IMG/VR virus record: IMGVR_UViG_3300030061_000531
Coordinates: 1-21,058 of that record
Reading direction: 5' to 3' (one strand)
From: a virus
DNA: 21,058 bases
The notes beneath the pieces are model-generated. The model was given only the letters and a program-made list of their open reading frames with translations, searched no databases and was not told the DNA's origin. The position numbers and the translations under genes were made by a program. Shown here one piece after another: positions 5,239 through 11,302 of this stretch (the first letter of the stretch is position 1; each line of letters begins with the position of its first letter).

Positions 5239-6159
5239 ATGGCAAATGGCGGAATCATTGGTGTAGTTAACGATCCAACCCTAGGCGATAAAGTTACAAC
5301 TTTTAACTCACCAGGAACTTTCACACCTACTTTATCATCTGGTAGAATTTTAGTAGTCGCTGGAGGCGGCGGCGGTGGTGGCGGTGGCTCCGGAGGAGGA
5401 GCAGGAGGTTTTAGAGATATTCCAGGACATCCTTTCCCAGGTTCAAATGTTCCAATAACAGTTGGTGGTGGTGGAGCTGGCACAAGTGGCTCTCCCGGTA
5501 CTTTAGGAACTGATGGTTCTACATCTACTTTTGGTGCTGCATCTCCAATTTCTTCAACAGGAGGTGGAGGTGGTGGAGCACTAACTGGCGTGGGTCGAAA
5601 CGGCGGATCTGGAGGAGGTAGTGGTACTAATCCAGGTGCTAATGGATTCGGTGATGGAAATGCAGGATCATTTGATCCATCAGAAGGTCAAGCTGGAGCA
5701 GCTTTTCAATTTAATGCTGGTGGAGGTGGCGGAGGCGCTGGTTTCACAGGTACGCAAGGATCCTATCCAAATACAATTGCTGGAGGTATAGGAAAAGAAT
5801 CAGACATAACAGGAACCACAACTTATTATGCTGGTGGCGGTGCAGGTGGTTCTGGTACAGGTGAAGATACTAGTACAAATCAACCAGGATCTTTTGTTCA
5901 AAAAATAGCTTATGGTGGATTAGGTGGAGGAGGAAATTCTGATACTGGTCCAAGTGCAAGTCCAGGTCAAGCAAGTGCTGGAACTGCTAACAAAGGTGGT
6001 GGTGGCGGAAACGCTTATGGCGGTCCAGGTAGAGATGGTCAAGCTGGAGGTTCTGGTGTAGTTATAGTAAATGAACCCGGTGCTGGTGCTTTTGTTGCAA
6101 GTGGAGTTTGGAAATTAAAAGAAGTTTTTAATTATAAAAAAGAAAGTTTATGGAAATAA
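5239..6159 (+). CDS. Glycine-rich adhesin-like tail protein
   Basis: The 306-residue product is extremely Gly-rich. It has an N-terminal beta segment (TFNSPGTFTPTLSSGRILVV), a run of nine consecutive Gly soon after, and further GGGG blocks through about residue 275. The C-terminal segment is ASGVWKLKEVFNYKKESLWK. Multiple Gly tracts separated by short variable loops recall the polyglycine-helix adhesins at tail-fibre tips of T-even-like phages, where the loops read the receptor. The C-terminal VWxLxEVxNYKK pattern is one I recall from many marine phage fibre proteins. GAGG-type Shine-Dalgarno (AGGAGG) precedes ATG 5239. It is likely a host-recognition protein, by composition and neighbours only. 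Confidence 0.65.
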   Translation: MANGGIIGVVNDPTLGDKVTTFNSPGTFTPTLSSGRILVVAGGGGGGGGGSGGGAGGFRDIPGHPFPGSNVPITVGGGGAGTSGSPGTLGTDGSTSTFGAASPISSTGGGGGGALTGVGRNGGSGGGSGTNPGANGFGDGNAGSFDPSEGQAGAAFQFNAGGGGGGAGFTGTQGSYPNTIAGGIGKESDITGTTTYYAGGGAGGSGTGEDTSTNQPGSFVQKIAYGGLGGGGNSDTGPSASPGQASAGTANKGGGGGNAYGGPGRDGQAGGSGVVIVNEPGAGAFVASGVWKLKEVFNYKKESLWK

Positions 6160-6160
6160 T

Positions 6161-6652
6161 ATGGCACATTTTGCAGAAATTAAACAATCAGATAATGTTG
6201 TAATTAGAACAGTTGTTGTTTCTAATGATGATGTAAATGCTAATGGCGGAGAATATTCTACAGAAGCTGAAACTTGGGTGCAAAACAATATTCCTAATGA
6301 TCCTATTTTGTTAGCAGAATTTAGTGGATCATATCCTGCTACTTATTGGAAACAATGTTCTTATAATGCTAATGCCCGAAAACAATACCCAGGTAAAAAT
6401 AATCATTATTATGATTCTTCTAAAAATAAATTTATATGTGTTAAGCCTTATGATTCTTGGAGTTTAAACTCTGATGATGATTGGCAAGCACCAACCGCAA
6501 TGCCTGTTCAAAGTAATCTTTTAAATAACGACCCACCTTTAAGTGGACCTTTATGGGAAGAATCAAATGCAAGATGGTCAGCAAGATCCGAAAATAATAA
6601 TTATTATGTTTGGAATGCTACAAATTCTACTTGGGATTTAACATCCGAATAA
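6161..6652 (+). CDS. Conserved phage protein, MAHFAEI family, possibly fibre-associated
   Basis: The 163-residue product begins MAHFAEIKQSDNVVIRTVVV and continues with WKQCSYNANARKQYPGKNNH, then KPYDSWSLNSDDDWQAPTAM. This order of elements (MAHFA-x-[ILV], N-x-V-[IVL]-R-x-[IV]-V-V, TSYN-x-N-x-R-K, [KP]P[FY]-x-SW-x-L) matches a family I remember from cyanophages and other marine phages, typically close to tail-fibre genes and without a proven role. It is rich in Trp, Tyr and Asn and lacks membrane segments. It starts one base after the adhesin stop, so it is probably co-translated with it. It may be a fibre-tip component or assembly factor; both are guesses. Confidence 0.6.
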   Translation: MAHFAEIKQSDNVVIRTVVVSNDDVNANGGEYSTEAETWVQNNIPNDPILLAEFSGSYPATYWKQCSYNANARKQYPGKNNHYYDSSKNKFICVKPYDSWSLNSDDDWQAPTAMPVQSNLLNNDPPLSGPLWEESNARWSARSENNNYYVWNATNSTWDLTSE

Positions 6653-6699: not shown

Positions 6700-7293
6700 A
6701 TGAATACAGTTAGTTTATTTGCTAAACATATTGGGGTGTTTTATTTAGATATTGATACTAAAAAAATTTTAAACACTATTAAAAAAGAAAAATACTTTAT
6801 CAACCACGATTATTTAAGATCACAACAATCAGTAAGTATAGAAATATTAAACAAACCAGAATTGTCTGAATTAAAAAAACAAATATTAAATTGTTTTTAT
6901 CAGTATAAAAAAGAAATATATAAAATAGCAAATGATTTCATAATACCTGCCTCTTGGGTTGCTAAATTTAAACCTAAAACATCTGGTGCAAGTCATGCAC
7001 ACTCTAATTGTATGTTTAGTGCTGTTTATTATTTTGATGAATCTTCTGAAATAGTTTTTAAAAATAGTTTATTAAATAATTTGTTTTGCAATTCTACAGA
7101 ATGGAACACTAATAACTGCACTTATTTTGAAATTAAACCTAAAAAAAATAAATTAATAATATTTCCGGCAGATGTATTTCATGAAATAAAACCTAACCTA
7201 ACAAAGAAAACAAGGTACTCTATTGCTTGTAATTTTTTTCCTGTAGGAAAAGTTGGAAAAAATGATTCTTTTGTAGAATTACAAATAGCTTAA
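6700..7293 (+). CDS. Putative 2-oxoglutarate/Fe(II) oxygenase 1 (2OG-FeII_Oxy_5-like)
   Basis: The 197-residue product shows the core of the putative 2OG-Fe(II) oxygenase family. The segment SWVAKFKPKTSGASHAHSNC (85-104) is followed by MFSAVYYFD (105-113), then LIIFPADVFHEIKPN (152-166) and TRYSIACNFF (171-180). Likely metal and cosubstrate residues are His99/His101, distal His161 and Arg172, eleven residues after the distal His. Unlike classical HxD enzymes, the first motif is HAHSN with no acidic residue. It would use O2, Fe(II) and 2-oxoglutarate to oxidise an unknown substrate. ATG 6700 has no evident Shine-Dalgarno. The coding sequence is clearly more AT-rich than the fibre genes. First of four such genes. 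Confidence 0.7.
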   Translation: MNTVSLFAKHIGVFYLDIDTKKILNTIKKEKYFINHDYLRSQQSVSIEILNKPELSELKKQILNCFYQYKKEIYKIANDFIIPASWVAKFKPKTSGASHAHSNCMFSAVYYFDESSEIVFKNSLLNNLFCNSTEWNTNNCTYFEIKPKKNKLIIFPADVFHEIKPNLTKKTRYSIACNFFPVGKVGKNDSFVELQIA

Positions 7294-7294
7294 T

Positions 7295-7906
7295 ATGAAT
7301 ACTTTTTATTATTTTAAAAATGTTTTTTCTGATTTATTTTGCGACGAAGTAATAAAATATGGAAACTCACAAAATGAAATTTTAGCTAGGACAGGTGGAA
7401 CTCAAGATAAAAAATTAAATAAAAAAGAAAAAAAACAATTATTAAAAAAAAGAAATTCAAATGTTTCTTGGTTAGATCAAGAATGGATTTACAGAGAAAT
7501 AAGACCTTTTTTAATTGAAGCAAATAAACAAGCTGGTTGGAACTATCACTTTGATTATTTAGAAAGTATTCAATTTACAAAATACAGATTAAATCAACAC
7601 TATGGTTGGCATGTTGATGAATATCCTAAACCTTTTGATAATGACTGTGAAAATATAAATTGGAGAGGTAAAACAAGAAAAATATCTGCTGTAATTATTT
7701 TATCTAATCCTAACGATTACAAAGGAGGAGAACTTATGTTTAAATATTTTCAAGGAGAAAAAACAAAAATAGAAAGTGTAAAAGATTTTTTACCAAAAGG
7801 TTCTATAATTGTATTTCCATCTTATGTGTTACATAAGGTAAAACCTGTGACTGATGGACTTCGTTATAGTTTAGTTGTATGGACTTTGGGACACCCTTTT
7901 AGATGA
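7295..7906 (+). CDS. Putative 2-oxoglutarate/Fe(II) oxygenase 2 (prolyl-4-hydroxylase-like)
   Basis: The 203-residue product carries a complete double-stranded beta-helix oxygenase signature. YRLNQHYGWHVDEY (97-110) gives HxD with His106 and Asp108, ISAVIILSNPNDYKGGELMF (130-149) has the GGEL turn, GSIIVFPSYVLHKVKPVTDG (169-188) gives distal His180, and LRYSLVVW (189-196) gives Arg190 for 2-oxoglutarate. This is the clearest enzyme of the four and should be catalytically competent. It resembles the PKHD/prolyl-4-hydroxylase group. Residues 36-53 form a Lys-rich insertion (DKKLNKKEKKQLLKKR). The ATG is one base after the preceding stop, and its TGA overlaps the next ATG. The substrate may be protein-bound Pro/Lys or a small molecule and is not determinable here. 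Confidence 0.85.
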   Translation: MNTFYYFKNVFSDLFCDEVIKYGNSQNEILARTGGTQDKKLNKKEKKQLLKKRNSNVSWLDQEWIYREIRPFLIEANKQAGWNYHFDYLESIQFTKYRLNQHYGWHVDEYPKPFDNDCENINWRGKTRKISAVIILSNPNDYKGGELMFKYFQGEKTKIESVKDFLPKGSIIVFPSYVLHKVKPVTDGLRYSLVVWTLGHPFR

Positions 7907-8388
7907 TTGAAATTAAAGATAATATTTTAAAAGAAGAAGATGCAGATTACATAGAATCTGTTTTTAAAAATAATCATTTTCCTTATTATTTAAATCCAAT
8001 AGTTTTTGATTCAAATACAAAAGATTATCAAATGACACATATTTTTTTTGATGATAATAAAATTACAAGTGATTTTTTTAATATATTAAAACCTATTTTA
8101 AATTATTTAAAACCAAAAGCTTTAGTGCGTATTAAAACTAATTTAATACATAAATCAAATGAAATAGAAATACACGGTTATCACACAGATTTTAATTATA
8201 AAAATTTAAAAACAGCAGTATATTATGTAAATACAAATAATGGATTTACTATATTTAAAAATAATAGTAAAAAAGTAACTAGCAAAAAAAATAAAATTTT
8301 AATATTTGATAGTATTAAAGAACACTCTGGTACAAATTGCACAGATGAACCATTTAGAATAGCAATAAATTTTAATTATTACGTATGA
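7903..8388 (+). CDS. Putative 2-oxoglutarate/Fe(II) oxygenase 3 (compact)
   Basis: The 161-residue product is short for the superfamily but keeps the triad: EIHGYHTDF (89-97) with His94/Asp96, ILIFDSIKEHSGTNCTDEP (132-150) with distal His141, and FRIAINFNYY (151-160) with Arg152 eleven residues later. The intervening KTAVYYVNTNNGFTIFKNN (103-121) matches the usual strand pair between motifs. Truncation relative to relatives is at the N-terminus, which has one short helix (EEDADYIESVFKNN). The start overlaps the upstream stop as ATGA, as does its own stop with the next gene. Base composition is very AT-rich (for example 8 G/C in 60 bases at 8221-8280). The substrate is unknown. Confidence 0.75.
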   Translation: MIEIKDNILKEEDADYIESVFKNNHFPYYLNPIVFDSNTKDYQMTHIFFDDNKITSDFFNILKPILNYLKPKALVRIKTNLIHKSNEIEIHGYHTDFNYKNLKTAVYYVNTNNGFTIFKNNSKKVTSKKNKILIFDSIKEHSGTNCTDEPFRIAINFNYYV

Positions 8389-9011
8389 GTAACTTTCAAA
8401 AAAATCATTATCTAGTTATAAAACAAGCAATTAATAAAGAGCTTGCAAATTTTTTATATAATTATTTTTCTATAAAAAAAGATGTAGCATACACAGTTTT
8501 ACATAGTGGCTTTGTTTCTCCATATACAGAATACTTTGGACATTGGAATGACAGTCAAGTTCCAGGTTCTTTTTCACATTATGCTGATATTGCTATGGAT
8601 GCTTTATTATTAAAAGTGCAACCAATTATGGAACAGCACACAAAAATAAAATTAATACCAACTTATTCTTACACTAGAATGTATGCTAAAGGTAATGAAT
8701 TAAAAAGACACAAAGATAGATCGTCTTGTGAGATATCTACTACAATGAATTTAGGTGGAGATTTATGGCCTATATTTATTAAACTAAGTAACAAAAAAAA
8801 CATTCAAGTTATATTAGAACCAGGAGATATGTTGGTTTATAAGGGTTGTATATTAGAACATTGGAGAGAACCTTTTCAGGGAGATGAATGCTGTCAAGTA
8901 TTTTTACATTATAACAATGCTTTATCTGATTTTGCAGAAGAAAATAAATACGATAAAAGACCTCATTTAGGTTTGCCTCCTTGGTTTAAAGATGCTAAAT
9001 TTAAAAAATAG
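8385..9011 (+). CDS. Putative 2-oxoglutarate/Fe(II) oxygenase 4, atypical cosubstrate site
   Basis: The 208-residue product has YTRMYAKGNELKRHKDRSSC (96-115), with an HxD motif at His109/Asp111, then ISTTMNLGGDLWPIFIKL (117-134). ILEPGDMLVYKGCILEHWRE (143-162) gives distal His159, followed by QVFLHYNNAL (171-180). At the position where Arg or Lys normally binds 2-oxoglutarate (10-12 residues after the distal His) it has Cys169-Cys170-Gln171 instead. I recall cyanophage relatives with the same HWREPF...QVFLHY signature, so this is probably a real subfamily rather than decay. The C-terminal KRPHLGLPPWF extension is also typical. The gene is last in the cluster, followed by an 86-base gap. Confidence 0.7.
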   Translation: MSNFQKNHYLVIKQAINKELANFLYNYFSIKKDVAYTVLHSGFVSPYTEYFGHWNDSQVPGSFSHYADIAMDALLLKVQPIMEQHTKIKLIPTYSYTRMYAKGNELKRHKDRSSCEISTTMNLGGDLWPIFIKLSNKKNIQVILEPGDMLVYKGCILEHWREPFQGDECCQVFLHYNNALSDFAEENKYDKRPHLGLPPWFKDAKFKK

Positions 9012-9097: not shown

Positions 9098-11302
9098 ATG
9101 CTACAAAAAATTGGATTTCGGCCAGGAATTAATAAACAACTTACACCCACAGGAGCAGAAGGTCAATGGGTAGACTGTGATAATGTTAGATTTAGATATG
9201 GCACACCAGAAAAAATAGGTGGTTGGAAACAACTAGGAGGAACAAACGATTTAACTGGAGCAGGTAGAGGTCTTCATCATTTTGTTAGTTCTACTTCAAT
9301 CAAATACTCTATCATAGGAACTAATAGAATTTTATACGCTTATTCAGGAGGTGTGTTTTATGACATACATCCTATCAAAACTACGACAACATTAACAAAT
9401 GCATTTAGCACAACTAACGGATCACCTACAGTTACTATTACTTTTTCAACATCTCATGGCATAGTTGCTGGTGATATAGTTTTATTAGACAGTTTTAGTT
9501 CTATTACTAATTCTAATTTTGCTGCATCAGATTTTAATGATAAAAAATTTATGGTTACAACTGTGCCATCTGCTACCACAATAACAATTACAATGCCTTC
9601 AAACGAATCAGGATCTGGAGCATCAGCATCTGGTGGTATAAGAGTACAACATTATTATCCTGTAGGTCCAGCTGTTCAAGCAAAAGGTTTTGGTTGGTCA
9701 CTAGGAACTTGGGGCGGAGAAGAGATTGGAGCATCAACTACAACTTTAAACGGTGCTTTGTTAGACGACACGGCAGGGACAGGTGGTTCTGGAACATCAA
9801 TTACTTTGACCGATGCCTCACAATTTCCTAGCACAGGTACAAATTTTATTCAAGTTGGTAACGAAGAAATTTCTTACACTGGAGTTTCTGGAAATGATTT
9901 AACAGGTATAACTAGAGCAGTTAGAAATTCTACAAGATCCTCTCATTCAAATGGAGCAACTGTAACAAACTCTACTAGCTTTGTTGCGTGGGGTGAAGCT
10001 GCATCAGGTGACTTAGTATTAGAACCTGGTATGTGGTCATTAGATAATTTTGGTGATAAAGCAATTTGTTTAATTCACGATAGCGCTGTTTTTGAATGGG
10101 ATTCTTCATCTACTACAGCGGCGTCTACAAGAGCAACAATTATATCTGGTGCACCAACTGCATCAAGACACATGTTAGTATCTACACCGGACAGACACTT
10201 AGTATTTTTTGGAACAGAAACAACTATAGGAACACCTAGCACACAAGACGATATGTTTATTAGATTCTCTGATCAAGAGGATATAAATACTTATACACCA
10301 ACAGCAACCAATACTGCTGGTACACAAAGACTGGCCGACGGATCACAGATCAGAGGAGCGATTAGAGGCCGTGATGCAATTTATGTTTGGACTGATACAG
10401 CATTGTTCACACAACGTTTTGTTGGTCAACCATTTACATTTGCATTTGCACAGGTCGGTACAAACTGTGGACTTGTTGGACAGAATGCTTGTGTTGAAGT
10501 TGATGGTGCTGCGTATTGGATGTCAGAGAATGGTTTTTTTAGATATGCTGGTAGATTAGAATCTTTACCTTGTTTAGTAGAAGATCATGTATACAACGAT
10601 ATAAATTTAGACTCTGGTAATCAGATGGTATCCGCTGGATTAAATAATTTGTTTGGTGAAGTTATGTGGTTTTATCCAACATCAACATCATCAGTTGTAA
10701 ATAGAATGGTTGCCTATAATTATTTTGACTCATCAACACAAAGACCTGTTTGGACCGTAGGTTCATTAGCTAGAACAATGTGGAGAGATTCAGCTGTATT
10801 TGGTTTACCTCATGCTTTATTTTATGAAGCAGACTCTGATACATCATTTGATGTTGTTGGAAACACAGAAGGTAAAACAACATACTATGAACACGAAACA
10901 GGGACAGATCAAATTAGAGGTGGTACAACTACAGCCATTACAGCTAGTATAGAATCAGGAGATTTTGATATTAGTCAAAGAAGAGCATCAGGAACAGGTC
11001 AATCTACAGGCCTTGCAGATTTAAGAGGCGATGGTGAATTCTTAATGAAAATTAGAAGATTTATTCCTGACTTTGTTGCTCAGACAGGAACAACTAGAAT
11101 TACATTTGAATTAAGAAATTTTCCAAACGATAGTCAAACTGGATCTCCTTTAGGTCCTTTTGATATAACATCCTCTACTACTAAAATAGATACAAGAGCT
11201 AGAGCTAGAGCAATTGCATTGAAAGTAGAAAATACCTCTACCTCTCAAACTTGGAAACTAGGAACTTTTAGATTAGATATACAACCGGATGGAAGAAGAT
11301 AA
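9098..11302 (+). CDS. Tail nozzle / DNA-stabilisation-like structural protein
   Basis: The 734-residue product begins MLQKIGFRPGINKQLTPTGA, then DNVRFRYGTPEKIGGW (about 28-43), a start I associate with large tail proteins of marine podoviruses that occupy the place of P22 gp10 or T7 gp12 (tail tube/nozzle). An inserted beta domain (about 90-180) is Ser/Thr-rich. ISYTGVSGNDLTGITRAV (about 259-276) is a small repeated-strand module. The strongly conserved-looking core runs from about 425 (DAIYVWTDTALFTQRF) through YWMSENGFFRY (about 472-482) to LNNLFGEVMWFY and PVWTVGSLARTMW, suggestive of a beta-propeller. It should close the tail channel. The P22 or T7 equivalence is inferred from size, order and fold guess. 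Confidence 0.6.
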   Translation: MLQKIGFRPGINKQLTPTGAEGQWVDCDNVRFRYGTPEKIGGWKQLGGTNDLTGAGRGLHHFVSSTSIKYSIIGTNRILYAYSGGVFYDIHPIKTTTTLTNAFSTTNGSPTVTITFSTSHGIVAGDIVLLDSFSSITNSNFAASDFNDKKFMVTTVPSATTITITMPSNESGSGASASGGIRVQHYYPVGPAVQAKGFGWSLGTWGGEEIGASTTTLNGALLDDTAGTGGSGTSITLTDASQFPSTGTNFIQVGNEEISYTGVSGNDLTGITRAVRNSTRSSHSNGATVTNSTSFVAWGEAASGDLVLEPGMWSLDNFGDKAICLIHDSAVFEWDSSSTTAASTRATIISGAPTASRHMLVSTPDRHLVFFGTETTIGTPSTQDDMFIRFSDQEDINTYTPTATNTAGTQRLADGSQIRGAIRGRDAIYVWTDTALFTQRFVGQPFTFAFAQVGTNCGLVGQNACVEVDGAAYWMSENGFFRYAGRLESLPCLVEDHVYNDINLDSGNQMVSAGLNNLFGEVMWFYPTSTSSVVNRMVAYNYFDSSTQRPVWTVGSLARTMWRDSAVFGLPHALFYEADSDTSFDVVGNTEGKTTYYEHETGTDQIRGGTTTAITASIESGDFDISQRRASGTGQSTGLADLRGDGEFLMKIRRFIPDFVAQTGTTRITFELRNFPNDSQTGSPLGPFDITSSTTKIDTRARARAIALKVENTSTSQTWKLGTFRLDIQPDGRR

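Follow-up and report, generated by a model that had tools for sequence, protein, structure and literature searches.

Four oxygenase genes in a marine phage tail locus belong to an exchangeable cassette that probably modifies the neighbouring glycine-rich adhesin

The stretch of viral DNA analysed here in full (a 21-kb virus record, called the window) carries four adjacent genes, P1 to P4, which lie between the fibre genes and a nozzle-like virion structural gene (Table 1). The open reading frames and their junctions (TAA-T-ATG, ATGA and ATGA, in order) were reproduced by ORF inspection exactly as described in a first-pass annotation of the same DNA, which had placed the island between fibre and nozzle genes and had considered the genes likely to be made together; the position was confirmed, and we likewise judge P1 to P4 to be probably co-expressed. 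P1 matched PF13759 (2OG-FeII_Oxy_5) at 1.8e-13 and P2 matched PF13640 (2OG-FeII_Oxy_3) at 1.1e-13, both above the Pfam cut-off, and P2 also matched NCBIfam PKHD/YbiX-type models below their curated cut-offs. The profile searches proposed in that annotation gave less for the other two proteins, since P3 matched PF13640 at 6.7e-5, under the curated cut-off, and the Pfam search returned no oxygenase match for P4. Searches against PHROGs profiles assigned the four proteins to four different families (P3 to phrog_274 at 6e-44 and P4 to phrog_2954 at 1e-54), and the profiles of P3 and P4 did not detect each other. Because of these two results a recent tandem duplication was ruled out, in agreement with the earlier view of four subfamilies, and P1 to P4 are Fe(II)/2OG-type oxygenases from four separate families. 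A Megablast search of the window against isolated phages gave no match.

Table 1. Location and assignment of the genes in the window and of related genes in other loci
Feature	Location	Strand	Assignment
Gly-rich tail protein, adhesin-like, proposed substrate	5239..6159	+	PF21722 Gly_rich_2, phrog_2295
D163, small partner gene beside Gly-rich adhesins	6161..6652	+	phrog_7759 (3.4e-24)
P1	6700..7293	+	Fe(II)/2OG oxygenase, phrog_81, PF13759 type (HxH...H)
P2	7295..7906	+	Fe(II)/2OG oxygenase, phrog_61, PKHD/YbiX (P4H-like) type (HxD...H...R)
P3	7903..8388	+	Fe(II)/2OG oxygenase, phrog_274; library name 'DNA endonuclease V' is a misnomer
P4	8385..9011	+	prolyl-hydroxylase-fold Fe(II) oxygenase, phrog_2954; library name 'ferrochelatase' is a misnomer
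Nozzle-like virion structural gene	9098..11302	+	phrog_3287 (4.4e-99)
Halogenase, O-carbamoyltransferase, sulfotransferase and methyltransferase loci	L019:3787-5268, L029:6612-7955, L011:3616-4422, L016:6421-7005 and 9396-9995		tailoring enzymes in slots of sister phages
P4-P2 fusion	L275:1410-2516; L277:7487-8596; L281-L360		phrog_3531-like; library name 'ferrochelatase'
X178	L017:6873-7418; L005:8245-8748; about 60 other loci		no Pfam match
89-aa peptide, Pyrinomonadaceae contig	L270:1565-1834		RiPP-precursor-like by eye
P4 homologue, same contig	L270:2009-2713		

Upstream of the island, the Gly-rich tail protein matched PF21722 at 1.3e-11, above the cut-off, and it is sited between tail genes and the nozzle gene. 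From its family resemblance, its position and its exchange between otherwise similar phages, this protein is probably a receptor-binding adhesin; a PF21722 search of cellular genomes found nothing. The usual order in most loci is the Gly-rich protein, D163, the oxygenases and the nozzle gene, and D163 adjoins the Gly-rich gene in nearly all loci surveyed, also in unrelated phages. D163 and a Gly-rich gene without a nearby oxygenase also occur, for example in HTVC025P and CRP-207. In L187, L208 and L229-L250, double adhesin units (Gly-rich gene, D163, D163, Gly-rich gene) stand upstream of a single cassette.

The AlphaFold2 models of P3 (pLDDT 94.8) and P4 (pLDDT 96.4), built as the first-pass annotation had suggested, both showed a double-stranded beta-helix, and their best solved Foldseek matches were a Dictyostelium prolyl hydroxylase (4e-7) for P3 and the Pseudomonas putida prolyl-4-hydroxylase (4e-10), with PHDs next, for P4; for P1 and P2 the same core is given by their above-cut-off Pfam matches. 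The His pair or HxD with a distal His that had been noted in all four proteins was found as a conserved site in each family alignment: H99-x-H101...H161 in P1, whose HxH...H is an invariant variant of the triad; H106-x-D108...H180 with R190 in P2; H94-x-D96...H141 with R152 in P3; and H109-x-D111...H159 with R161 in P4, the metal triad (HxD/E or variant, then H) being invariant in P2, P3 and P4. The invariant Arg of P4 lies at His+2 rather than at the usual position of about +10, nothing basic is present at +9 to +11 after the distal His, the usual 2OG-binding place, and Q171 is present. The modelled Fe(II) oxygenase fold of P4 is secure, with prolyl hydroxylases as its closest fold relatives, whereas with such a site 2OG is no more than a presumed co-substrate. 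The library names of P3 and P4 did not hold. The ferrochelatase Pfam model matched none of the 65 members of the P4 alignment, and the fold is that of prolyl hydroxylases, so P4 as a ferrochelatase was ruled out; P3 as a T4-type DNA endonuclease V was ruled out as well by its prolyl-hydroxylase fold, its HxD...H...R site and a Pfam search that gave no endonuclease V match.

The content of this position, or slot (from the adhesin/fibre genes to the nozzle gene), was surveyed in 80 loci by scanning viral contigs with the nozzle gene as anchor. This gene forms the downstream border of the slot and also served as the control gene; with this anchor, the survey was not selected for oxygenases. Enzyme families were assigned by profiles built for this analysis, and some slots may include broken genes, as in L030 and L053, where carbamoyltransferase ORFs are split. 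Of 75 complete slots, 70 had one or more tailoring enzymes and 39 had four or more, with 12 in a single slot. In the same loci, 309 enzyme genes lay inside the slot and 3 elsewhere. Different fibre genes, without a Gly-rich adhesin, accompanied the five empty slots. Of the 58 dereplicated slots that do have such an adhesin, all contained P2 and 55 contained P4. In L039, L063, L070, L073 and L088, related nozzle genes are accompanied by another fibre set, a 485-aa family that by eye resembles LamG, and tailoring enzymes are absent. Oxygenase runs also occur in isolated or GenBank phages (5 genes in HTVC008M, about 8-9 in S-SM1, 4 in 023Pt_psg01, and 3 each in HTVC023P and HTVC033P). By the survey counts and these runs, four such genes in a row are commonplace among these phages, contrary to the first supposition that this was unusual; a unique four-gene system was ruled out, as the slots of related phages hold 0 to 12 enzymes.

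The slot of the window contains the four oxygenases only. In sister-phage slots, Pfam searches identified a tryptophan halogenase (4e-110), a NodU/CmcH-type O-carbamoyltransferase (5e-48), sulfotransferases (8e-12 and 4e-5) and a class-I methyltransferase (1e-9), and DUF6445 and JmjC/cupin-like proteins were also present; the first-pass annotation had mentioned neither the halogenases, carbamoyltransferases, sulfotransferases and methyltransferases of the slot nor the island's connection with the upstream Gly-rich adhesin. The frequent first cassette gene X178 encodes a protein that by eye is degenerate oxygenase-like, lacks the distal His and is possibly a non-catalytic partner. In seven surveyed loci (L013, L031, L041, L100, L104, L114 and L119) and in HTVC027P (L170), the cassette is inverted relative to the structural genes and remains in the same slot, which suggests that it is exchanged as a block and perhaps has its own promoter.

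In order to relate the enzyme sets to their neighbours, partial Mantel tests were performed on the 58 dereplicated slots. The enzyme set followed the adhesin given the nozzle gene (partial r=0.41-0.48, p=0.0005) and did not significantly follow the nozzle gene given the adhesin (r=-0.07 to -0.22), in statistics that are only partly corrected for phylogeny. Testing three upstream structural genes in place of the nozzle gene gave the same outcome, as did taking the first enzyme, or the last, nozzle-adjoining one, by itself. The module was also found in unrelated phages, namely the pelagimyovirus HTVC008M and the cyanomyoviruses S-SM1, P-RSM4, S-CAM8 and Sf-FR1, and it recurs in the lake phage DSL-LC04, with the oxygenase flanked by the Gly-rich gene and D163 a long way from the nozzle gene. 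The cassette is thus widespread and swappable, and travels with the Gly-rich tail protein.

In freshwater phages, two of the enzymes occur as a natural fusion, in which residues 8-184 correspond to phrog_2954 (P4) and residues 196-364 to phrog_61 (P2), the C-terminal half matching PKHD-type YbiX/PiuC models. A scan anchored on the fusion found a Gly-rich gene at most 4 genes upstream in 75 of 80 loci, the remaining 5 ending at a contig edge, so that the fusion stands beside a Gly-rich gene in 75/75 testable loci; other genes there were Gly-rich in 9 of 325 cases.

The composition of the adhesins was examined in a sample collected by a DNA-pattern scan for polyglycine stretches, which is blind to enzymes. 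The proline share of the Gly-rich domain was 7.0% with P4 nearby (n=14), 3.8% when only other oxygenases were near (n=12) and 2.7% when there were none (n=38), with p=3.7e-7 for P4 versus none and p=7.5e-4 for P4 versus other oxygenases, again in dereplicated loci and with incomplete correction for phylogeny. Within the nozzle clade the values were 7.2% with P4 (n=74) and 3.1% without it (n=4 only; p=0.001). In the first 80 polyglycine loci no residue was enriched more significantly than proline, although the enzyme-bearing contigs were poorer in G+C. A dose relation between proline fraction and the number of oxygenases was tested and was absent. A strict Pro-Gly preference, seen in the first 80 loci, was weakened by the full set, which was enriched in Gly-Pro too, and for residue signatures of the halogenase, carbamoyltransferase and sulfotransferase the samples, of 4-6 loci, were too small for use. 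By the indirect evidence of proline content in the partner adhesins, P4 is a candidate adhesin prolyl hydroxylase. On a Pyrinomonadaceae contig, a peptide with a leader ending in GG and terminal QPSPGG repeats precedes a P4 homologue, possibly forming a bacterial peptide-hydroxylation locus.

Overall, these results support the hypothesis, to which we assign a probability of roughly 0.68, that the exchangeable cassette post-translationally modifies the phage's own Gly-rich tail adhesin. The hypothesis draws on the oxygenase folds and metal sites, the fixed position, the co-variation with the adhesin, the P4-P2 fusion and the proline enrichment with P4; the adhesin is the putative substrate on the grounds of comparative genomics, and the residues modified and an effect on host binding are likewise presumptive. 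The first-pass annotation had thought several modifications of a virion target conceivable, and the comparative data favour that reading. The adhesin would be modified before or during virion assembly, with P2 and P4 as its core peptidyl hydroxylases, joined in most cases by P1. P4 would most likely hydroxylate prolines of the polyglycine domain, and P1 to P3 may hydroxylate other side chains of the adhesin. In relatives, enzymes of carbamoyl, sulfo and methyl transfer, together with halogenases, could decorate hydroxylated or aromatic residues, and the surface chemistry of the adhesin would be swapped together with the adhesin itself. More tentatively, and with somewhat less than even confidence, combinatorial hydroxylase cassettes with optional halogenases and carbamoyl-, sulfo- or methyltransferases may diversify the receptor-binding proteins of marine and freshwater phages in general, recognition then depending on enzyme content as well as adhesin sequence.

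In the published reading, such genes are auxiliary metabolic genes, the oxygenases acting on host 2-oxoglutarate/nitrogen status or DNA repair and the 'ferrochelatase' on haem or iron. The excerpts available of the papers concerned propose a role in nitrogen metabolism and cite DNA repair for the oxygenases of T4-like cyanophages (Sullivan 2010, PMC3037559), take 24 such genes in S-SCSM1 as host reprogramming (PMC9602691), report 2OG oxygenases co-located with 'ferrochelatases' in pelagiphages (PMC9599517) and class phrog61 and phrog2954 among seasonal metabolic genes (PMC11561400); the S-SZBM1 carbamoyltransferase has been assigned to pyrimidine synthesis (PMC9146016, in the part available). 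In the literature to hand, subscription papers and preprints aside, a proposal that such genes modify an adhesin was not found. However, P4 has neither the fold nor the Pfam match of a ferrochelatase, and a metabolic role predicts neither the confinement of the genes to one slot by the adhesin, nor their co-variation with it, nor an adhesin proline content that tracks P4, and we therefore regard it as improbable.

The chief non-functional alternative is an insertion-tolerant recombination hotspot, at which unrelated cargo gathers by the adhesin and recombines with it without acting on it. Since tail-fibre loci are recombination hotspots, joint transfer is possible without a chemical link, and the variable content of the slot and the seven inverted cassettes in the surveyed loci fit such an account. 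It is nevertheless unlikely, if marginally less so than a metabolic role: the content is chemically narrow, with P2 and P4 nearly constant beside Gly-rich adhesins, and a hotspot predicts neither the recurrence of the Gly-rich association as a fused protein in unrelated freshwater phages nor the dependence of proline content on P4. A further possibility is that the enzymes act on the host surface (an outer-membrane protein, a glycan or a receptor), perhaps as a means of superinfection exclusion; they would then follow the adhesin's receptor and not the adhesin itself. This also expects co-variation with the adhesin, and sulfotransferases and carbamoyltransferases, both present in the slots, can act on glycans; yet it leaves the proline enrichment with P4 and the prolyl-hydroxylase folds unexplained, and we consider it no more probable than a metabolic role.

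2OG oxygenases are frequently reported as auxiliary metabolic genes of ocean viruses. If the cassette does encode adhesin-modifying enzymes, two widely used annotations, ferrochelatase and DNA endonuclease V, would be wrong, inferences on host metabolism from phrog_61 and phrog_2954 would need revision, and chemically modified adhesins would form a new layer of phage-host recognition. The cassettes would then also be a rich source of peptide hydroxylases whose candidate substrates are encoded close by.

The same phrog_61, phrog_81, phrog_274 and phrog_2954 are co-located in HTVC023P-type pelagiphages (PMC9599517) and T4-like cyanophages (PMC3037559), where, in the accessible portions of these accounts, the clusters receive a metabolic reading with 'ferrochelatase' at face value and are not tied to a Gly-rich adhesin, proline content, halogenase, carbamoyltransferase or sulfotransferase. 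Among solved structures, the P. putida prolyl-4-hydroxylase that acts on EF-Tu (PDB 4iw3, 4j25) shares the double-stranded beta-helix of P4, but it has 14% identity and a cellular target, and the His+2 position of the invariant Arg in P4 is a further difference. The PKHD-type hydroxylases YbiX/PiuC (PDB 3dkq, 9qn1) represent the models matched by P2 and by the second half of the fusion, with P2 standing in a different context and its match lying below curated cut-offs. A previously studied halogenase of Syn10 origin belongs to the tryptophan-halogenase family (PF04820) found in some sister-phage slots, the window having none; the earlier work dealt with that enzyme on its own, acting on free substrates, whereas the slot halogenases are part of adhesin cassettes. 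Mimivirus L230, a collagen lysyl hydroxylase/glucosyltransferase, resembles the proposed cassette in that the virus encodes both the 2OG oxygenase and the Gly/Pro-rich structural protein on which it acts. It differs in being a single bifunctional enzyme of a eukaryotic virus that acts on a collagen triple helix, whereas the cassettes described here are multi-enzyme sets of tailed phages, with polyglycine-type adhesins encoded alongside.
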